Source: a virus. From it: 49,906 bases of DNA. A program made the translations under genes and the position numbers. The notes under the pieces are model-generated. The model saw only the letters and a list, made by a program, of their open reading frames with translations, was not told the origin of the DNA and did not search any database. Location of the stretch: the IMG/VR virus record IMGVR_UViG_3300035698_011250, positions 1-49,906 of that record. One strand, 5' to 3'. Positions 3,781 to 49,784 of the stretch are shown piece by piece (within the stretch, counting starts at the first letter, position 1; each line of letters opens with the position of its first letter).

Positions 3781-6700
3781 ATGGCACAAGAGACAAGTAA
3801 TTTTTATAGAGGATTAAGGAGACTTTTTTCTAATAATGTTATTGTAAGATATGTTGGGAAAAGAAAGGTTAAGGTTATTGATACTGATGGTTTTCAAATA
3901 AGGCAGGGTGATACCGGCACTTATTCTAGAATGAGAACTTATGCTAAAACTCAGAACGCTTTAACAGCTACCTATAGAGCAGATAGACAGTTACTATATA
4001 ATGACTATATGGTTATGGATAGAGACCCAATTCTTTCATCTGCATTAGACTTATATGCGGAAGACTCTACCGCCAAAGATGAATTTGGAGACGTTTTGAC
4101 AATTACAACGGATGATAAGAATATTGAAGATATATTACAAAACTTGTTTTATGATATATTAAATATTGATTTTAATTTATGAAGTTGAATAAGAAATATG
4201 TGTAAGTTTGGGGATGCTTTCCTGTATCTTGAATTACATAAAGATTTGGGCATAGTTAATATAAACATATTATCACCCTATGAAGTTGAAAGACTTGAAG
4301 GTGAAGACGAAGATAATCCATACTTGGTTCAGTTTGTAATTGCTGGTGATAAAAATAGTATGTTAGAAGAATTTCAAGTTGCTCATTTTAGATTGTTAAG
4401 TGATGTATTTTTATTCCCTTATGGCAGAAGTATGCTTGAAGGTGGTAGAAAAGTTTGAAAACAATTGTCATTAATGGAAGATGCTATGCTTATTCATAGA
4501 ATAATGAGGGCTCCAGAAAAGAGAATTTTCAAAATAGATGTTGGGGCATTAGCACCAGACGAAATTGACAATCACATGGAAAATATTATATCAGGCATGA
4601 AACGTACCCCACTAATTGACCAGCAAACAGGCGACTATAATTTAAAGTTTAATATGATGAATATTAACGAAGACTTTTTCTTTCCGGTTCGTGGTGGAGA
4701 TAGTGGTACAGAAGTTGATACATTAAGTGGCATGGAATATGCTATAATTGATGACATTGAATATTTACAAAAGAAACTGTTTGCATCATTAAGAATCCCA
4801 AAAGCTTTCTTAGGATACGAAGAAGAAATTGGATGTGTTGTTCCGGAAACTGAAATTAAATTAATTAACGATGAAATAAAAACTGTTAAAGACTTGATTG
4901 AGGACTATGAAAGTGGAATTAAAAATTATGTTTATTCTATTAATGAAGAAAATGAAATTGTACCCGGCGAAATATCTTGAGCTGGATATACAAAAAGGGA
5001 TGCGGAATTAATCCGTGTAAATTTAGACAACAATAGACATATTGATTGTACTCCTGACCATAAATTTTTAACGAGGGATGGGGAATGAGTTGAGGCGCAA
5101 AATTTAGCAGAAAATCAATCATTGATGCCTTTATATTTAAGCGAAACAACACAAAAAAATAAAAACGGATATACTACGGTGTACAATCCTAAAACTAACA
5201 AATATAAAGAAGTTCATAGAATTATCGCAGAATATTATAATATGATAAAACGTGGCAATGGTAAGGTTGTTCATCATAAAGATTTTAATAAGAAAAATAA
5301 TTATCCAGAAAACTTTGATTGTTCGATGAACTTTTTTGAACATAGACAATATCATAGTCAATTAACAGAAAAAACAATTAACTCTCCAGAAAACATAAAG
5401 AAAAGAATTACTGATGAAAATTGAATTAAATCTGCCATTAAAGGTGGAAGAAAGGGCGGGCTTAAATCTGCCGAGAAACTTGTTGCTTGGACAGAAAAGA
5501 ATGGGGTGTGGAATAAAGGAATCTTAAACGGCGATACAAAAGTTTGTAAGAATTGTGGTGATGAATTTTATGCTATGAAGTCGAAAACATCTCAAGCATG
5601 TTGTTCTAGAAAGTGTAGTGACGAATATTGTGTTGGCGGAAAAAGATATAATACAAAATATTTAATTGACCATAATTTATTAATTGAAACTGCAAAAAAA
5701 TGTAATTCATTTAAGTCTTTAGAAGAAGAATTAGGCAATATTGATAGGAATACATTGAATAGAGTTTTTAAGGCTAATAACATTGATAAGGTAGATTTTA
5801 TATTTAACCATATGCCTCTTGCTTTGGAAAACAAAAATTTCATGCAAAACTATAGAAAGTATGAAGCAAAATATATGAACCATAAAGTTGTTAGTGTGGA
5901 ATTTTTAACTGAGTACAGGAACACTTGCGACATTACAATTGATAGGTACCACAATTTTGCTACAAATGCTGGGGTTATTATTCATAACTCTAAGGCAACT
6001 TTGGCTAGTGAAGATTTAAGATTTGCTGGCACAATTGAAAGAATACAGAAAATTATAGTTTCTGAATTAACAAAAATGGCAGTAATTCATCTTTATTCAC
6101 AAGGATATAAAAACAAAGACCTATTAAACTTTGAAATCTCATTAACTAATCCGTCAGTTGTTTTTGAAGAACTGAAAATTGAATTATGAAATTCAAAAAT
6201 CGCACTTGCGGGGGATATGTTGGATAGTAATTTGTTAGCAAGTGAATTTATATATGAGCAAATATTAAATCTAAATGAAGAGGATATTGAAATAAACAGA
6301 AAGGGAATTGTAGAAGACAAAAAAAGAAAATTTAGATATGAACAGATAGAGCAGGACGGAAGCGACCCAGCTATTGAAGCAAATAAACCTGTCGGAGATG
6401 ATGAAGATAGTGGGATTAGTTGAGATGAAAATGTAGATGATAAAGATGACGACGATGATACTGATTCTGATAGAGAAACGAAAAGAAATGAAAAGAAAAG
6501 AAAGATTGATACAATGTTAGGAGTTGATGATATGAAAGATTCTCATAAATTTAGTAAGGCTGACATTACACATAAATATAAAGGTGGCAGTGCATTATCG
6601 TTGGAAGGTACTGTTAATGATGTATTTGAAGAGACAGACGAAGAGATTCAGAGACTGGAAGAGTTTAACGAAAAAAGACTTCATGACAAATGGAAATTTT

Positions 6701-6804
6701 TAAGTCGTCTTGAAACAATATTACAATATTCAAAAGAAGAAAGTGACAAAGATTTAATAAAAGAGGTCTTAAAAGGCGAAAAAGATAAAATAATGTTAAA
6801 ATAA
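3781..6804 (+). CDS. 20: Portal protein (gp20-like), interrupted by an intein
   Basis: One open frame of 1007 codons with eight UGA codons read as Trp. Removing the 385-residue intein (4834-5988) leaves a 622-residue portal, somewhat longer than T4 gp20. Diagnostic stretches are LWSWIRNMCKFGDAFLYLEL, KVWKQLSLMEDAMLIHRI with RAPEKRIFKIDVG, and SKATLASEDLRFAGTIERIQ after the intein. The Trp in KVWKQ is conserved in the family and is encoded by UGA here. The C-terminal ~150 residues are acidic and charged, and could be a portal extension. The ATG follows a weak AGG site. Confidence 0.95.
4834..5988 (+). mobile_element. Intein with HNH homing endonuclease in the portal gene
   Basis: In-frame 385-residue insertion. 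It starts at Cys1 (CVVPETEIKL) after ...YEEEIG and ends VIIHN, followed by Ser+1 of the portal. Splicing block B is CTPDHKFLTRDGEWVEA. The C-terminal blocks are CDITIDRYHNFATNAG and VIIHN. Between them lies an HNH-type nuclease (VVHHKDFNKKNNYPENFD with later H..Q.H) and a Cys-rich zinc-binding segment (CKNCGDEF ... CCSRKCSDEYC). It sits directly before the highly conserved KATLASEDLRFA motif, typical of intein targeting. Several UGA codons read as Trp lie inside it. Confidence 0.93.
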
Positions 6805-19631: not shown

Positions 19632-20330
19632 ATGATAATTTATAAGATAACAAATTTACTGAATGGGAAAATGTATATTGGTAAGGATAAAAATAATGAT
19701 AAAAATTATTATGGCTCAGGTAAAGCATTATTAAGGGCAATAAAAAAATATGGGAAAGAAAACTTTAAAAAAGAAATTATTGATGAATGCAATTCGTATG
19801 GCGAAATGAATGAAAGGGAAATTTATTGGATAGATTACTATAATGCCGTTGAATCAAGAAAATATTATAATATGAAAGATGGAGGGGATGGTGGTGATTG
19901 CCCACAATGTCATACAAAAGAATTTGTTGGGAAAATGAGAGACTTATCATTGGGAGAAAATAATTCAATGTATGGCAAGAACCATAAAGAAAAATCAAAA
20001 CAATTAATGAAAATGAGAGCTGTTGGCCGTTATACTCTAGAATGGTTTATAGAGCGGTACGGAGAAGAGGGACACCAAATGTGGAAAGAGCGGAACAAAC
20101 AACTTTCAGAGAATCGCATGGGTAGTAATAATCCTTTTTATGGCAAAAAATTTGATTATGAAAAGCATCCCATGTATAGGGAGATAGATAGGGAAAAACT
20201 ATTTGAATTTGTAAAGGACGGATTAACATTAAAAGAAATGGGCAAGAAATTTAATTGTTCGGGGTATTGTATAAGTGAAAAAATAAAGCATTATTGGGGA
20301 TGTTCAATTAGAGACCTAAGAGAGATGTAA
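19632..20330 (+). CDS. GIY-YIG homing endonuclease with NUMOD motifs
   Basis: 232 residues. The catalytic domain is at residues 1-90: IYKITNLLNGKMYIGKDKNN (the GIY..YIG pair), an Arg-bearing LLRAIKKYGKENFKKEII, and ReIYWIDYYNA. Residues 105-130 and 160-180 carry NUMOD3-type DNA-binding repeats (GENNSMYGKNHKEKSK, GSNNPFYGKKF). The C-terminus is a small HTH (TLKEMGKKFNCSGYCISEKI). All Trp are TGG. It is free-standing between the capsid gene and the neck genes, the usual niche of Seg-type endonucleases of T4-like phages. It has its own AGGAG. Confidence 0.92.
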   Translation: MIIYKITNLLNGKMYIGKDKNNDKNYYGSGKALLRAIKKYGKENFKKEIIDECNSYGEMNEREIYWIDYYNAVESRKYYNMKDGGDGGDCPQCHTKEFVGKMRDLSLGENNSMYGKNHKEKSKQLMKMRAVGRYTLEWFIERYGEEGHQMWKERNKQLSENRMGSNNPFYGKKFDYEKHPMYREIDREKLFEFVKDGLTLKEMGKKFNCSGYCISEKIKHYWGCSIRDLREM

Positions 20331-28286: not shown

Positions 28287-29309
28287 ATGTCTATAGATAA
28301 AATAAATGGATTAACAATAAGTAGTTTAAGTAAATTTAATGGATTGTTATTGAGCAATTTGGCGAAAATTAATGGATTAGACATAGTAACTACTGTTTTT
28401 GAATTAATAGCTGTTGGTAGTGAAGTTGGACATGGTGGAACTGGTATAAATGAACAATTTTGGGGTTGGGGATATAATGAAGTCGGCGATATTGGAGATA
28501 ATACAAGTGTTAGTAAACGAACTCCAGTTGCAGTTTGCGGTGGACATACATTTTGTACAATTGGTGCGATAAAAGATGCGGCATTTGGAATAGATATAAA
28601 TGGGCAAACTTGAAGTTGAGGTTCGAATTCATATTCAAAACTAGGACAGGGTGCAGTAACTCCCACAAGCACTCCAAAAACGATATATGGTACTCACACT
28701 GCAATTGGTTTGGGAAGCTATCGTTTTGGTTTTGGACTTGTAGATAATAGTGGACAAGCCTGATATTGGGGTGATAACCCGGCCGGTCAAATAGGTGATA
28801 ATACAACAACGGCCAGAAACACTCCAGTTGCCGTCTGTGGAGGTCATACTTTTTGTAAAATAGGTATAGGAAGATGGGTTGCATCATTTGGAATAGATAT
28901 AAATGGCCAAGGGTGAGGTTGAGGTCAAGGTGTTATTGGTCAATTAGGAGATAATACAACTATAGACAGATGTACACCGGTTGCAATTTGTGGGGGGCAT
29001 ACTTTTTGTGATATTGCGGGTGGACTTTTTGGTTGTCATGCTATAGATATACATGGACAGCTTTGGGGTTGGGGTTATAATAATTGTGGAACAATAGGGA
29101 ACAATACAATTATTAGTAAACGAACCCCAGTTGCAACTTGTGGAGGACATAGTTTTAAGCGGGTTGCAACTGATGAAAATTGAATTTTAGCAATAAAAGA
29201 AAATGGCGAAATGTGAGCATGAGGTCGCAATAATAATGGTCAACTGGGAGATAATACGACAACAAGCAGACTAACTCCAGTATTAGTATGCCAAACATAT
29301 ATACCATAA
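28287..29309 (+). CDS. RCC1-repeat beta-propeller protein, single propeller
   Basis: 340 residues. The N-terminus carries a repeated DKINGLTISSLSKFNG, NLAKINGLDI motif common in phage virion proteins. Then six visible RCC1 blades follow, each with WxWGxNxxGQLGDN, a spacer, TPVAVCGGHTFC and (A/G)IDI.G. RCC1 propellers have seven blades; the N-terminal strand region may complete the ring. About nine UGA codons fall on the RCC1 Trp positions, making this strong proof of the code. Likely a virion-surface adhesin, by position and lack of other domains. Confidence 0.85.
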
Positions 29310-32744: not shown

Positions 32745-34934
32745 ATGGGGCTATTACACGCTAAAATTTATAAAGGTCGGCTAAGATGTTTTCATATATT
32801 AGATGCACCACTACCACCTCAGATATTGTTTGTATCTTCTGGAGCGGAGAGTGGGGCGTTATTATATGAAGATGATGCTTGAACTTGGGGGAGAAATTCT
32901 GCTGGTTGTTTAGGTGATAATTCAACAACTAGTAGATTAGCTCCAGTTGCAGTTTGTGGTGGACATAATTTTGTAAAAGTACAATTTGGGCATACAATAT
33001 GTATAGCACTCGATACGGCGGGAAATGCTTGAACTTGAGGTAGCAATCAATATGGTAAATTAGGAATTAATTCAACAACAAGCAGACGAACCCCCGTTGC
33101 AGTTTGTGGTGGGCATACATTTTGTGAAATTTCCACACATAGATATAATTCGGCGGGGATAGACATACATGGTCAAGCTTGAGCATGAGGCTATAATAGT
33201 ACTGGTCAATTAGGAATTAATTCAACAACAAGCAAAAACACCCCGGTGGCAGTTTGTGGTGGGCATACATTTTGTGATATTAATTGTGGCCAAAATTTTA
33301 TTGGAGCTGTAGATATTAATGGTGTTGCTTGAATGTGAGGTAGAAATGATAATGGCCAATTAGGAGATAATACAACAATAGACCAATGTACTCCAGTTGC
33401 AGTTTGTGGTGGGCATACATTTGCCATAATATGAACTGGATGAATACACACTATTGCTTTAGATTCTAATGGTAAATTATGAGCCTGAGGAGCTGGTGGG
33501 GAGGGCAGATTGGGAGATAATACAACAGCGGGCCAATGTACTCCAATTGCAGTTTGTGGTGGGCATGTATTTTGTCAAGTTGGAATTTCATATTATTCTA
33601 CATATGGAGTTTGTACAGACGGTACTGGTTGGGCGTGAGGATATAATGTTAGTGGTGAATTGGGCGACAATACAACTGGAACAAAGAGTACTCCAATTGC
33701 AGTTTGTGGTGGACATTACTTTAGACAATTGGATGGCGGCTCAACTCACGTATCTGGAGTTGATAGCGATAATATAGCGTGAGGTTGGGGGGCCAATACT
33801 TATGGACGGTTAGGCGATAATTCGTTGGACGCAAAATGTACACCAGTTTTAATTTGCCAAACATATGTGCCGCCACCCCCTGTAATTGCAAGTATATTAA
33901 TATCTAGGTGGAATTTATTGTATAATAATGTAGCTTGGGGATGAGGTACCAATACTTATGGTCAAATAGGCGATAATACAACTACAAGCAAATTAACTCC
34001 AGTTTCAATTTGTGGCAATCATACTTTCTGCAAAATAAAGGGGGGTGGAGGTAATTCTATAGCTATTGACACAAATGATGTTATTTGAACATGGGGTGAC
34101 AATACTTATGGTCAAATCGGTAATAATACTATTGGAGGAAATCAGTTAACCCCCACAACCATATGTGGTAGTCATACATTCTGTCATATTGGTGTGGCGA
34201 ATGGCTTATACATTGGGATTGATAATCGTGATATAAGTTGAGCATGAGGTAAAGCTGATTATAATGGAACTGGACTTGGAGTTGATGTTTGCACTCCAAC
34301 TTTGATACATGGTACGCATACATTCTGTAAAATTGGTGATAATATGGGTGATGCATGTATAGCATTGGACAATTATAACTTTGCTTGGGCTTGAGGGAAG
34401 AATTTTGCTGGTGGATTGGGTACTGGCGGTATAACTGATAAATGAACACCAACTAAAGTTTGTGGTGGACATACATTTTGCGAAGTTGATTCTGCTACTA
34501 TACATTCGGCAGCAATTGATATACATGGAAAAGCCTGAGCTTGAGGCGGTAGTAGTTTAAATGGTGATAATAATTCATTACTGGATAGATATACTCCAGT
34601 TGAAGTATGTGGCGGTCATTCATTTATAAAACTTTCAATAGGTATCTCTTTTACTGCGGCATTAAAAGATAATGGAGAAGTTTGGTGTTGGGGATTTTCT
34701 AATCGTGGAGAATTAGGCAATAACTCTATAACTAGTGAAATTGGATTAACGCCAGTTCAAGTATGTGGCGGGCATACTTTTTGCAAAATAGCAGCTGGTT
34801 CAGAAAATTGTATCGCCGCAGACGTTAATGGTACTGTATGGGCATGGGGTAGAAATATAGAAGCACAACTTGGAGATGGAACACTAGTAGATAAAATAAC
34901 TCCAGTATTAGTATGTCAAACATATATACCATAA
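32745..34934 (+). CDS. RCC1-repeat protein, two seven-bladed propellers
   Basis: 729 residues. Fourteen RCC1 blades are visible by their WxWG motifs: seven from about residue 41 to 368, a proline linker (YVPPPPVIAS), and seven more to the end. Most first Trp residues of each WxWG are UGA and many second ones TGG. Blades share the CGGHTFC motif, so a conserved Cys pair per blade may form disulfides or bind metal. The ending VCQTYIP equals that of the 28287 protein. A cell-surface-binding virion protein is the likeliest role; chromatin regulation as in eukaryotic RCC1 is not implied. Confidence 0.85.
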
Positions 34935-34950
34935 ATAGGATTAATATAAA

Positions 34951-37900
34951 ATGAGAATGAAATTAGCCGCAAATAAAGCACATGTTAAATATTTAAAATG
35001 AATAACAATAATAAATTATAATCAAATGGTTATAGGTGGCGATTATTCTTCTTATATGTTGACTAAGCGGGCTATGCCTTGAGCTTGAGGGTCAGCATTG
35101 AATGGGGCTTTAGGCAATAATTTAAATACCGGAAATGAATATTCGCCAGTTGCTATTTGTGGCAATCATAGTTTTTGCGATATAGTCGGAGAAAATGAAG
35201 CAGTATTAGCAATTGATATAAATGACAATTTATGAGCATGGGGAGATAATGATTGGGGTGCAATAGGTGACAATACAATAATAAGTAGGTTAACCCCAAT
35301 TTTAGTTTGTGGTAATCATAAAGCTTCTAAAATAGGAATGGGGCTTAATTTTAGTTTAGCAATAGATACAAATGGACAGGCTTGAGCTTGAGGCAGTAAT
35401 GGTTCTGGTCAATTAGGAGTTCCTACATTTGAGTCAGCATTAACCCCCATTGTAGTTCAAGGTGGACATACATTTTGTGAGATTTCAGCACAACATTATG
35501 GAACAATTGCAATAGATATACATGGACAGGCTTGAGCTTGGGGTAGTAATGATTATGGTGAATTGGGTATAGGAAATGAAGATTGAACGTATAATCTAAC
35601 TGCGGTTTGTGGAAATCATAGTTTTTGCAAAGTTGCTGGAAATTATTATCACAAACTAGCGTTAGATACGGATAAAAAGACTTGAGCTTGGGGTTATGGT
35701 ACTTATGGTCAATTGGGGAACAATTCTGACGCAGGTAACCTAAATACTCCAATTGAAGTATGTTGTAACCACACATTTTGTGAACTTGCTGGAGGGGCCA
35801 AACATTCGTTGGCAATAGATATTAGTGGCCTTGCTTGAGGATGAGGGTATGGTTATTATGGTCAATTAGGGAACAATTCTGATGGAGATAACTGAATTCC
35901 AGTTACTGTATGTGGTGGACATTCATTTTGTAAAGTAGCGGCGGGTTATGGTTTTTCTGTTGGCATAGACACAGCTGGAATTGCCTGAGCTTGGGGGTAT
36001 GGTGGATGGGGCCAATTAGGTAATAACAATTCTGATAATGAATGAACCCCTGTTAAAGTTAATGGTAGTCATAGTTTTTGTGAAATAGCGGTGGGCAATA
36101 ATCATGTCATAGCAATAGATAAAACTGGTTTAGGATGGGCTTGGGGCGATAATACTTATGGTACGTTGGGTGATGGCACAAATACAAACCAATGTACCCC
36201 GGTATCTATGTGTGGAAATCATAGTTTTTGTGAAATAGCGGCGAATGAAATTAACTCAAATGCAATAGATATAACTGGTTCTGGTTGAGCTTGGGGGGAA
36301 AATTATCAAGGTTCATTGGGTATAGGAAATGAAGATGATGTATGTGTACCAACAGCAGTTTGTGGAAATCATAGTTTTTGTAAAATTACGTTTGGACAGG
36401 ACCATGCTGTAGCAATAGATATAGCTGATTCAAGTTGAGTTTGGGGGACTAATTTTGAAGGACAATTGGGAGTTAGTACAAATGATAGTGCTTTGACCCC
36501 AATTATGGTTTGTGGTGGACATACATTTTGCGAAATAGCTGGAGGTGCATATACTGCATTAGCAATAGATAAAGATAGCATAGGTTGAGCTTGGGGCGAT
36601 AATCAGCATGGGCAATTAGGAGATAACACAGAAACTAATACATTTTTACCAGTAGCCATATGTGGAAATCATAGTTTTTGTGAAATTGAAGGTTCACGTT
36701 ATGCATCATATGGGGTAGATATAACTGGTTTGGGTTGAGCTTGAGGCGCTAATTCTTATGGAGAATTGGGTATCAATTCAACTACTTGTATAAGTACGCC
36801 AATATTGATACATGGCGGCCATACATTTAAAGAAATAAAGGCTAGATATTATCATGTATTGGGTTTAGATATAAATGGTTCTGCTTGAGCTTGGGGGAGA
36901 AATGATTATGGACAATTGGGTGATAATTCAACGATTTCTATAAGTACACCCGTTCCAGTTTATGGTGGACATACTTTTTGCACAATTGGAGTAGGCCAAT
37001 ATCATTCGTTAGCAATTGATATTAATGACCAAGCTTGAGCTTGGGGAAATAATGACGAAAACCAATTGGGGATTTATACAAATTTTGTTGGTGAGCCAAT
37101 ATATAGTTTGAGTGTTGGGGTTGACAATAGTAATATGTTATATAATGGAGTATATTGAAATTGAGGGTCTAATGTTTATGGTCAATTAGGAACTGGAGAT
37201 ACGGAGTCAATTAATTCTCCAATTACTGGGTTAGACAGGTACAATGATACAAAAACACCAATAGAAGTTGGGGCAAAGTCAATGAAAAAAACATTTTGTC
37301 AAGTAAAAGCCGGAATGTACCATATAGTGGCATTAGATATACATGGACAAGCATGAGCATGGGGGTATAACAATAGCGGTAGGCTGGGAAATGATTCTAC
37401 AACTGACGTATGTACGCCAGTTGCAGTTTGTGGTAATCATACATTTTGTTCCATTTGAGTAGGTGCGGCTAGTAGCTTTGGCATTGATAAAGATAATAAG
37501 ACATGAGCTTGAGGCGCTAATGTCGATGGTTATTTGGGGATAGGCTCCGTAACCAATGAATATACACCAACAGAAGTTTGTGGTGGCCATACATTTTGTC
37601 AAATAGCGGGTGGCGGGAATGCCACCCGCTGAACATTAGCAATAGATAATCACGGTATATGTTGGGCTTGAGGAAATAATGAAATTGCTACATTGGGGAA
37701 TAATGAATCAGGGATAAATTGTTCTGAAACCGTTCCTGTTGCAGTATGTGGCGGGCATAATTTCTGTAAAATAGCCGCCGGACAGTCTGTATCTGTAGGA
37801 ATAGATACGGCTGGATTAGCCTGAACATGGGGCCAAAATTTTAATGGGAGTCTTGGAACTGGTGATGCTTGAGAACAAAGATGTCAATTAACTCCCGTTA

Positions 37901-38232
37901 CAGTTTACGGGGGACATAGTTTTTGCGAGGTATCAAAATTTGGAGATGGGGCGGTAATTGTAATTACCAAAAATGGAAGAGCTTGGGGTTGAGGGCCAAA
38001 TGACCATGGAAAAATAGGCAATAATAATATAAATTGAAGAAATACTCCGGTTGCAGTATGTGGAAATCATACTTTTTGCCAAATTGCGGCTGGCCCAAGT
38101 CATACTATAGCACTTGATAATAATGATATTATGTGAGCATGGGGATGAAATTATTCGGGCGGATTGGGGGCCGGCAATGCTTCGATATGCGAAATAACAC
38201 CCATATTAGTTTGTAAGACATATATACCATAA
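34951..38232 (+). CDS. RCC1-repeat protein, three seven-bladed propellers
   Basis: 1093 residues carrying 21 visible WxWG blades, exactly three times seven. Typical blades read AWAWGxNxYGQLG, TPVxVCGNHSFCEIA, AIDIxG. A break in the pattern (residues ~700-770, YSLSVGVDNSNMLYNGVYWN then KTPIEVGAKSMKKTF) separates the last propeller. Blades within this gene carry mainly the CGNHSFC form, whereas the 32745 gene carries mainly CGGHTFC, so blades have been homogenised within genes. Trp is encoded mostly by UGA. Ends VCKTYIP. Likely the largest adhesin. Confidence 0.85.
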
Positions 38233-38927: not shown

Positions 38928-40544
38928 ATGAAACAGAAGTTAGCAGTTGTTACAGTATGTGTTGGAGATTACTACAACGAATTAGCAAAATACACCCACC
39001 CATCAATTAAAAAATATGCCAATAAGATAAATGCAGAATTTATCGTTATAGGTAATGACAATCCAGACTATATCACTCAAAAATATAACAAGTTTGAAAT
39101 ATTCAATTTACTAAACAAGTATGATAGACTTATCTATTTAGATACTGATATAATAGTAAGAGATGATTGCCCAGATTTATTTGAAGTCGTTCCAAAAACA
39201 AAATTGGGTATGTATAATGAAGCAATGTTAGGCGAACGATTTAGTTATTTACGAGATGCTTCAGACGTCTATCAAGAACCATTAAAAGATTGGGATAATA
39301 AGTTTTACAATTCTGGTGTAATGGTTATTTCAAGAATGCATAAGGGAGTATTTAGATTGCCTAAAATGGCTGATATAATTGAAACAGACCAACCTTGGAT
39401 AAATTTAAGAATACAGAATGATAAGATTGAAATGTTTGATTTGGGTTATAAATTTAATCGTATGAGTGAGTTTGACAAACATATAGGAATTAATAGATTA
39501 GATTCTTATATTATTCATTATGCAGGCGCACCACAAGACCAAATATTTCCAATTTTAATAGGTGACATTAAGACGTTAGCGGATATGTCACCAGACTATA
39601 ATTTTGAACAAGATATTGCAATTAGTATATCGGCAGGAATGGGAGACCAATTATGTTCTGAACCTGTAGTAAGATATATTAGAGAGGAAGTTTATCCAAA
39701 TGCAAACATTCATGTTATATCACATCACAAAAGATTATTTCAACATATAGAAGGTGTTCAGGTTTACAATTATGAGGAGTGGCAGGGATTGCAAAGTGCT
39801 GTAAAAGTAATGAGAACTTGTCCTGACGATAATGAATCAGAACATCACCTATCACATGCATTATTTCACCCAACAGATTTTGCGGCAATGTCAACGATTA
39901 AAATGACAATTCCAAATTTGAAGAAGACAATTAAATTAGAAGTTAAAGACGAAGATATTGAAGAAATTGAGAGAATATATGATGAGGATGTTGATTTTGA
40001 AAACATGATACTAGTTCATGCGGGCAAATGGTGGCCAAGCAAAACATTTCCAATTGAATGGTGGCAAGAGATTATTGACGAGTTGTCTAAGACACATACA
40101 ATAGGATTGATTGGCAAAACAATAGATGAAAAGCAGGGGTATCAAGATATTGACTGCCCGGAAAATGGATATGATTTTAGAGATAGGACTTCACTAGGTG
40201 CATTAATAGCATTAATAAGTAAAGCCAAAATAACCCTAACAAACGATTCCTCCCCGGTTCATATTGCGGGTGCGTTTGATAATTGGATGATAACTATTCC
40301 AACTTGTAAACATGCAGACCATATATTGCCATTTAGAAATGGAAGCCAATATTATAAAACGTTAGCGTTAACTAAAAAATTAACAATTACTGACCAAGAT
40401 ATTACGCCAACTAATTTTGATGTTGAAACGATTGATTTAGTTCCTTCAGGAAATATTTATGATTATATACCTGATGTCAATGAAGTTATAAAGTGGACAG
40501 ACGAAATTATGAGCAATCCAACAATGACTGGTATAAAAATATAA
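38928..40544 (+). CDS. Bifunctional glycosyltransferase: GT8-like plus GT9-like
   Basis: 538 residues. Residues 1-230 look like a GT8-type nucleotide-sugar transferase: KYDRLIYLDTDIIVRDD (DxD metal site) and KFYNSGVMVIS. Residues ~235-500 resemble GT9 (heptosyltransferase family): ISAGMGDQLCSEPVVRYIRE, ILVHAGKWWPSKTFP, LTNDSSPVHIAGAFD. All ten or so Trp codons are TGG, unlike its neighbours. Adds sugars to a glycan or protein; the acceptor is unknown. A GT9 half fits ADP-heptose or a related donor. Confidence 0.85.
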   Translation: MKQKLAVVTVCVGDYYNELAKYTHPSIKKYANKINAEFIVIGNDNPDYITQKYNKFEIFNLLNKYDRLIYLDTDIIVRDDCPDLFEVVPKTKLGMYNEAMLGERFSYLRDASDVYQEPLKDWDNKFYNSGVMVISRMHKGVFRLPKMADIIETDQPWINLRIQNDKIEMFDLGYKFNRMSEFDKHIGINRLDSYIIHYAGAPQDQIFPILIGDIKTLADMSPDYNFEQDIAISISAGMGDQLCSEPVVRYIREEVYPNANIHVISHHKRLFQHIEGVQVYNYEEWQGLQSAVKVMRTCPDDNESEHHLSHALFHPTDFAAMSTIKMTIPNLKKTIKLEVKDEDIEEIERIYDEDVDFENMILVHAGKWWPSKTFPIEWWQEIIDELSKTHTIGLIGKTIDEKQGYQDIDCPENGYDFRDRTSLGALIALISKAKITLTNDSSPVHIAGAFDNWMITIPTCKHADHILPFRNGSQYYKTLALTKKLTITDQDITPTNFDVETIDLVPSGNIYDYIPDVNEVIKWTDEIMSNPTMTGIKI

Positions 40545-49028: not shown

Positions 49029-49180
49029 AAATTTATTAAAATAATTTTGAGTTTTTGTATATATAGATATATATAAGTGAGTACGAATCAGTCGCATTAT
49101 AGGGGTGAGAAAAATAGTAAAAAAAATTTATGTTTTGTTTTATACACACATATATATTAAACATAAAAAGAAGACAATAT

Positions 49181-49495
49181 AGGTGCGTGGTGTAACGGTA
49201 ACATGGTGGCCTTTAGCTGTATAATAAATTGGAGCGTATATATAGAAATATATATATTGTATTCTCTCAAATTCGGGGAACCCTGTAAAATGGCAATCCC
49301 GAGCTAAGCCTTATAATTTATAAGGAAAGTGTAGAGACTTGACGGGAGAACATCTAAGTTATTTTAATTATAATATGATGATGAGAAAGTCCAGATTACA
49401 AACAGTGTTAAATCTGGTAGTGAAAACTATAGTGATAAGCAAAGCCATACGGGTCCAACCGGTCGATGAGGGTTCGAATCCTTCCGTGCCTGCCA
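49181..49495 (+). tRNA. trnW: tRNA with anticodon UCA (reads UGA), intron-containing
   Basis: Exons 49181-49213 and 49440-49495 join to an 89-nt tRNA. The acceptor is AGGTGCG / CGTGCCT with G73 and an encoded CCA. The D arm is GTGT-AACGGTA-ACAT, the anticodon stem GTGGC / GCCAT, the loop CTT|CAAA giving anticodon UCA, and the T arm GAGGG-TTCGAAT-CCTTC. A1-U72, G2-C71, G3-C70 and G73 are Trp identity elements, and loop CUUCAAA equals that of Mollicute tRNA-Trp(UCA). This agrees with UGA replacing conserved Trp across the window. The variable region (49449-49467) is 19 nt, unusually long for tRNA-Trp and more like Ser or Sec tRNAs, so charging with Trp is likely but not proven. Confidence 0.85.
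49214..49439 (+). ncRNA. Group I intron (IC3-like) in the anticodon loop
   Basis: 226 nt inserted between U34 and C35. The last exon base is U and the last intron base is G, as group I splicing requires. Exon CTT can pair with GAG at 49232-49234 (P1 with a U-G pair). Core segments are TCTCAAATTCGGGGAACCC and GGCAATCCCGAGCTAAGCC (49265-49310), GTGTAGAGACTTGACGGG (about 49329-49346) and ATGAGAAAGTCC (49381-49392). The P9 hairpin is CCAGATT / AATCTGG (49391-49417). Core and position closely follow the cyanobacterial tRNA-Leu(UAA) intron. There is no endonuclease ORF. Confidence 0.9.
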
Positions 49496-49595
49496 AGTAT
49501 GAAGCGTTTCAAACTGTTGGTAACTAAGCGTCCAACCACTGGACAAAACCTTTCGGTGTATAGGATAACCGACATTTTGTTTAAGGAGAGTTAAT
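49496..49595 (+). other. Short intergenic leader
   Basis: Contains a small hairpin GTCCA-ACCAC-TGGAC (49530-49544) and the ribosome site AAGGAG before 49596. I see no second tRNA and no promoter motif here. Upstream of the tRNA (49029-49180) is AT-rich sequence with TATATATA runs but nothing assignable. Confidence 0.35.
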
Positions 49596-49784
49596 ATGAT
49601 TACTTTGGGCGTAAGTGCTTGTGTTTTTATACTATTTTTATTTTCATTAAAATGATTTAACAAAGCAAGAAAGAAAACTGGAACTGGAAATATAGGCGAG
49701 GCACTTGTTAGCGTTGGATGCGTAGTTGTTTCATTTTCAGTTTTTGTAACATTATTTATTGTTGGCCTAGTAAGTATATTTTAA
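49596..49784 (+). CDS. Small two-helix membrane protein
   Basis: 62 residues. Segment 1 is VSACVFILFLFSLKWF (the Trp is UGA), then a polar loop with NKARKKTGTGN, then segment 2 VSVGCVVVSFSVFVTLFIVG. Two hairpin membrane helices and this size fit a holin-like or other small phage membrane protein; nothing more specific can be said. AAGGAG precedes the ATG. Confidence 0.65.

Follow-up and report, generated by a model that had tools for sequence, protein, structure and literature searches.

A phage tRNA gene with a UCA anticodon split by a group I intron and with CCA in a second hairpin

The split tRNA gene and its group I intron

The window (the whole stretch of DNA that was analysed) is a virus record of 49,906 bases, in which ARAGORN in intron mode reported one tRNA gene, at 49181-49495, with the anticodon tca and a 226-nt intron between gcctt and caaag; default ARAGORN, run on the whole window without the intron option, called 0 tRNAs. 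The gene and its parts lie on the plus strand. Its 5' exon (49181-49213), delimited by ARAGORN and by compensatory changes in a relative described below, comprises (i) the 5' part of the acceptor stem (49181-49187), (ii) the D arm (49190-49204), and (iii) the 5' half of the anticodon arm, hereafter arm 1, with GTGGC at 49206-49210 and C32, U33, and U34 at 49211-49213. The 3' exon (49440-49495) opens with C35, A36, A37, A38, and GCCAT, followed by a further hairpin (arm 2), the T arm (49468-49484), the 3' part of the acceptor stem (49485-49491), G73 (49492), and an encoded CCA (49493-49495).

Joined, the exons give the anticodon loop CUU|CAAA and hence the anticodon UCA, and ARAGORN called the spliced 89-mer as a tRNA without the intron option. 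An earlier note, which had advised an Rfam covariance-model search for group I introns and tRNAscan-SE on the spliced sequence, was exact in its coordinates, loop, and lengths. Its complete tRNA stands, but the cloverleaf is not an ordinary one, since a 19-nt region with a small hairpin separates the anticodon arm from the T arm. The tRNA is best named tRNA-Trp(UCA). Bacterial tRNA-Trp identity comprises G73, A1-U72, G2-C71, G3-C70, G4-C69, G5-C68, A9, and the CCA anticodon (PMC9976931); the window tRNA carries the first four of these elements and departs from the remainder with U.G at 4-69, G.U at 5-68, G at base 9, and UCA as its anticodon, CCA being found in arm 2 only. A promoter and terminator scan gave no excess over shuffles, and a search of 49100-49600 against the Rfam models at E 0.1 returned no match besides the intron.

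The intron (49214-49439) contains no ORF and ends in a terminal G at 49439. Positions 49213-49411 match the group I intron model RF00028 with 50.9 bits, above the cut-off of 50 (E 9.7e-14 in one search and 4.1e-12 in another). In an alignment of 17 viral tRNA introns, which recovered P2, P3, P4, P5, P6, P8, and P9, the consensus core has 44 pairs, with 96% of cells paired and compensatory changes at 29 pairs. Over its full length, the window intron can be aligned to the introns of viral Leu(UAA), Arg, and Lys tRNAs, and its shared core and anticodon-loop site suggest an IC3-like subgroup. The alignment places P2 at 49238-49255; P3 at 49263-49268 with 49344-49349, enclosing P4, P5, and P6 (49263-49349); P4 at 49273-49278 with 49297-49302; P6 at 49303-49312 with 49322-49330; P8 at 49350-49380, between the strands of P7; and the inner hairpin of P9 at 49417-49430. 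P7, the G-binding helix, was read by hand following the group I scheme as a pseudoknot of GACT (49336-49339) with AGTC (49388-49391), spanning 49336-49391. The P9 region (49395-49436) is closed by an outer helix, read from the sequences, of ATTAC (49395-49399) with GTGAT (49432-49436).

The splice junction CUU|CAAA follows from the 7-nt loop and the terminal G, which leave no alternative, and the internal guide sequence at 49229-49234, TTG|GAG, fixes it independently through 6/6 pairing with CTT|CAA. The GAG half pairs 3/3 with the 5' exon CTT (P1), placing a U.G pair at the splice site, and the TTG half pairs 3/3 with the 3' exon CAA (P10). Many further viral tRNA introns have a P10 half that varies with the anticodon (Leu AAA, TTT or ATT; Arg CTA, TAG; Ala GCA, TGC; Thr GTA, TAC), and a few fit incompletely. 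Further support for the splice rule comes from a natural empty-site allele among the relatives, L356, which equals the spliced L270 base for base. The closest relative, L177 (identical to L211 and L212), is diverged, and its intron, of 222 nt, occupies the same position and scores 67.5 bits against RF00028; its acceptor, anticodon, and T stems differ from those of the window tRNA with pairing kept, and its outer P9 helix is ACCAC/GTGGT. The model, the covarying core, the U.G pair, and the guide for both exons bear out the group I core with U at the 5' site and a terminal G that the earlier note had described, and ARAGORN, RF00028, and the guide agree in placing the intron inside the UCA anticodon, after U34 and before C35.

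Bacterial group IC3 tRNA introns (cyanobacterial tRNA-Leu(UAA), Azoarcus pre-tRNA-Ile) share this core and a guide on the CUU loop, and the cyanobacterial tRNA-Leu(UAA) intron also occupies the site between bases 34 and 35; the window intron differs in its host gene, which encodes the tRNA-Trp(UCA) that a phage uses to read UGA. According to a 2014 review (PMC3984707), the group I introns of phages are found preferentially in conserved protein genes.

UGA as a tryptophan codon in the phage genes

The window genes from 2068 to 48996 on the plus strand, among them terminase, a portal with an intein, protease, capsid, and fibres, are read with UGA as Trp. With TGA taken as sense, 46 ORFs (a count that also includes ORFs upstream, from position 128) hold 163 TGA and 103 TGG codons and end in 34 TAA, 12 TAG, and 0 TGA stops. 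Relatives with the standard code show W on average in 49% of cases at the TGA sites, with Tyr next at 9%, and in 70% at the TGG sites; ten TGA sites have W in every standard-code relative. The in-frame UGA codons, the absence of UGA stops, and the Trp conserved in relatives confirm the code that the earlier note had assumed. Coding coverage rises when TGA is read as sense and changes little when TAG is so read. This coverage comparison was also used to read the code of further contigs, in which a Terminase_6N search gave no matches.

UGA is unevenly distributed in G015, a presumed sister phage that shares its sample of origin with G001 (capsid protein 87% identical). NAD-related genes and the gene of a CCA-adding enzyme lie in the part of the G015 contig where TGA:TGG is 11:113; the ratio is 81:82 in the other part, whose genes include ribonucleotide reductase, DnaB helicase, and tail sheath (p = 2.5e-14). 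Code 4 phages with Sup-TCA tRNAs (PMC7886860, PMC12386605, PMC11210395) share with the window UGA = Trp and a phage UCA tRNA, and in them UGA is likewise depleted in part of the genome. Unlike theirs, the window gene is intron-split and missed by default tRNA search, and its variable region has a CCA hairpin.

Several further features of these genes were observed. Of three window proteins (28287-29309, 32745-38232) with matches to the RCC1-repeat (regulator of chromosome condensation) family, two (729 and 1093 aa) account for 56 of the 163 in-frame UGA codons. A glycosyltransferase gene at 38928-40544, with 9 TGG and 0 UGA codons among UGA-rich neighbours, was perhaps recently acquired. Inserted in frame in the T4-like portal gene (3781-6804) is an intein (Pfam Intein_splicing, residues 360-736) that contains an HNH endonuclease, and a free-standing GIY-YIG homing endonuclease gene (19632-20330; 0 UGA codons) adjoins the capsid gene. 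Another free-standing GIY-YIG homing endonuclease gene, with seven UGA codons, lies just downstream of the intron-split tRNA of the presumed sister phage (L219:8365-9192).

Intron distribution and the question of regulation

The IC3-like intron pattern occurs in at least 119 viral contigs; where ARAGORN could call the tRNA, the matches listed fall in many isotypes, among them Leu, Arg, Thr, Ala, and Lys. Across L092-L210, such introns were seen in tRNAs of many isotypes (also Phe and Asn) that are invisible without the intron option. ARAGORN's tRNA-Trp(UCA) call in L162 was rejected as a misplaced junction, the splice rule fitting tRNA-Lys better. An exact-core search for the window intron in viral contigs, its own record left out, gave no matches, and the wrongly spaced pattern RGYGAAARYYRNAGNGNNNAAGYAAA gave three, with no tRNA seen at any of them. 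When introns were sought by a terminal AAG followed by CAAA, 115 stretches were retrieved. Beyond the L177 group, intron-split UCA tRNAs are present in L238/L261, L264, L270, L282, L285/L305, L287, L295, and L300. They belong to several unrelated UGA-recoded phages, all of the contigs sampled being UGA-recoded by the coverage comparison. The intron cores of L238, L264, L270, L282, L285/L305, L287, L295, and L300 differ from that of the window; in L238, L264, and L270, the P7 strands appear to have been swapped by compensation, and Rfam found no group I intron in the searched stretch of L238.

Some of these relatives have longer introns. In the four cases read, introns of 566-605 nt contain a gene for a PD-(D/E)XK-like protein, and two of these were checked against Pfam; the match is to PDDEXK_5 (E 1.5e-16), and the nearest solved chain, a weak hit (E 0.002), is 2ost, which we take to be I-Ssp6803I. 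The 629-nt intron of L295 encodes a weakly HNH/endonuclease VII-like protein. Through this protein, the introns of the relatives resemble I-Ssp6803I-type homing tRNA introns (tRNA-fMet, Synechocystis), whereas the window intron has no ORF and its target is a UCA anticodon loop. Since the window intron has no endonuclease gene, the mobility suggested for this copy rests on its relatives.

Of 62 contigs, 58 gave a call for a tRNA-Trp(UCA) that is built alike but lacks the intron, and the coverage comparison showed the sampled phages with such an intronless gene to be UGA-recoded as well; the intron is therefore optional. Attempts to trace the tRNA via capsid neighbours were unsuccessful, the contigs being fragments. 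The earlier note had proposed that splicing gates the switch to UGA = Trp, an autocatalytic RNA thereby controlling the code. In such a scheme, slow or conditional self-splicing would deliver the UCA tRNA late and time the translation of UGA-containing lytic genes. Because the intron splits the anticodon, UGA is indeed unreadable before splicing, and introns recur in the UCA tRNAs of several phage lineages; the avoidance of UGA in one part of the G015 contig would also fit a delayed tRNA, and theta ribozymes, which lie next to suppressor tRNAs, have been put forward as a means of controlling recoding (PMC10879173). However, ordinary viral tRNAs of many isotypes carry the same kind of intron, and intronless alleles are common in UGA-recoding phages, one of them (L356) with a mature sequence identical to that of its intron-bearing counterpart (L270), so that recoding is independent of the intron. 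Moreover, the UGA-rich part of G015, with its ribonucleotide reductase and DnaB, holds more than late genes, and we saw no sequence sign of conditional splicing. We therefore consider such a gate unlikely. Splicing would be needed to make the tRNA, but regulation by it is not supported by the sequences compared, and recoding does not appear to depend on the intron.

A passenger needs fewer assumptions than a gate to explain an optional intron, and the intron is best read, from its distribution, as a tolerated mobile element. It would be a member of a mobile tRNA intron family that targets CUU anticodon loops and thus most likely a splicing-neutral passenger and no regulator. Theta ribozymes are also self-acting RNAs required for, or placed at, the maturation of recoding tRNAs, but these HDV-like ribozymes process the 3' end, and 99.7% of their suppressor cases are amber (PMC10879173), as opposed to the group I intron in an opal suppressor of the window.

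The second arm and its CCA

In the spliced window tRNA, the stretch from arm 1 to the T arm is 19 nt long and reads A CGG GUCCAA CCG GUCGAU. Comparison with L177 and the wider family places arm 2 (the "variable arm") at 49450-49461, as CGG-GUCCAA-CCG, whose loop segment UCCAA has the Trp context U33-CCA-A37. In L177, arm 2 is TCC-GTCCAA-GGA, with all three pairs changed on both sides and an identical loop, and in the intronless L395, a UCCG/CGGA stem surrounds GUCCAA. In most relatives, the arm-2 stem has 4-6 bp and the loop is CUCCAAA or GUCCAAA, which is the anticodon loop of tRNA-Trp; the window arm, with 3 bp and a 6-nt loop, is short and mimics a Trp anticodon arm less than the full arm (5 bp, 7-nt loop) of the relatives. 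The 47 distinct arm-2 stems are paired at 88% of their positions, versus 48% in shuffles (sd 3%, maximum 57%). In a BLAST search of one family tRNA against phage genomes, the segment from arm 2 to the 3' end aligned to canonical tRNA-Trp at 80-90%, and the 5' part likewise aligned to tRNA-Trp. The two-armed build is also borne out by deletions in silico: removal of arm 1 gave tRNA-Trp(CCA) in 38/55 sequences and removal of arm 2 gave tRNA-Trp(UCA) in 40/55, both totals including five intron-bearing sequences with a wrong 5' exon that failed both deletions. G73 is present in 57 of 57 family tRNAs and A1-U72 in 41 of 57.

The 62-contig set had been selected for TCCAA, a selection from which the nine two-armed UCA tRNAs found through their introns (window, L177, L238, L264, L270, L282, L287, L295, and L300) are free. 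UCCA is present in arm 2 of 9/9 of these, which are partly related, so that counts overstate their independence, and in 1/90 variable regions of Leu, Ser, and Tyr tRNAs. Arm 2 is not universal, as the intron-split tRNA of L285/L305 is class I and has none.

Bacterial TrpRS recognises C34, C35, and A36, together with G73 and A1-U72 (PMC9976931), and a UCA anticodon means that C34 is lost. No TrpRS gene was found in the 15 contigs searched, which are fragments, and a host enzyme therefore probably charges the tRNA. These observations suggest a division of labour, in which the reading of UGA would fall to arm 1 and recognition of the tRNA by the host TrpRS would be aided by arm 2. In its general form, that of a two-headed tRNA-Trp in UGA-recoding phages whose UCA arm decodes and whose CCA variable-region arm is an identity element for the host TrpRS, we put the proposal forward tentatively, as a reading with a real chance of being correct. 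The published structure of E. coli TrpRS (PMC12135181) suggests that the enzyme need not tell C34 from U34 and might accept the latter, which makes a second arm less necessary; arm 2 may thus be dispensable for charging. Even so, the loop is kept as its stem changes, and this has to be explained.

A possible parallel was seen in Phass-1 (OQ749652, 62442-62532; L455:12440-12532), a phage with UAG = Gln, whose UAG suppressor has a tRNA-Gln-like body and a variable arm, CCC-UCUGAA-GGG, with CUG, a Gln anticodon, in its loop. By analogy with this one example, keeping the cognate anticodon in a variable arm might be a general principle.

The two arms could also compete for the anticodon position, the tRNA being charged in one fold as tRNA-Trp(CCA) and reading UGA, perhaps UGG, in the other. 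In relatives, either single-arm deletion leaves a complete cloverleaf. Arm 2 of the window is too short for an anticodon-arm role, though, and the window tRNA without arm 1 was not called as a tRNA, which makes a dual fold improbable here.

tRNA-Sec has a 13-bp acceptor/T branch (8/5 in bacteria) and a 6-bp D stem. A tRNA-Sec-like molecule, charged by SerRS and reading UGA as Sec or Ser, is a very remote prospect despite ARAGORN's tRNA-SeC label under the standard code, a long variable arm and G73 that are SerRS elements (PMC7609411), and real selC genes that can match the same pattern, because the window tRNA has a 7/5 acceptor branch, a 4-bp D stem, and A1-U72, the family tRNA body aligns to tRNA-Trp, and the UGA codons fall at conserved Trp positions, where Ser has a mean share of 6%, which refutes a Sec or Ser meaning of the codon.

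Overall, we consider it likely that the locus encodes a UGA-reading tRNA-Trp(UCA) split by a self-removing passenger group I intron, with arm 1 decoding and arm 2 keeping CCA. The primary transcript would carry the ORF-less IC3-like intron between U34 and C35; the guide UUG|GAG would align CUU with CAA, and the intron would remove itself in vivo to leave a UCA tRNA with which the phage could read UGA as tryptophan. The tRNA, with its two anticodon-like hairpins, would descend from tRNA-Trp, the UCA of arm 1 decoding UGA and the CCA kept in the variable region probably aiding the host TrpRS.

Bacterial tRNA group I introns, phage opal suppressor tRNAs, and suppressor-associated ribozymes are already known separately; in the open-access literature, we found no report of an intron-split phage suppressor tRNA, nor one that describes a tRNA bearing a second anticodon arm. 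An opal suppressor tRNA was detectable in 11 of 73 predicted code-4 phages, and some of the remainder infect hosts that use code 4 themselves (PMC11210395); undetected, divergent suppressors have been suggested as one reason for the missing tRNAs (PMC7886860). Intron-split genes, such as the one in this window where default ARAGORN drew a blank, are one concrete and searchable answer to the missing suppressors. If the old anticodon is indeed kept in a second arm, the meaning of a codon would have been changed with the host synthetase left unchanged, and the two-armed tRNA would be a natural design for UGA suppressors that is directly testable.
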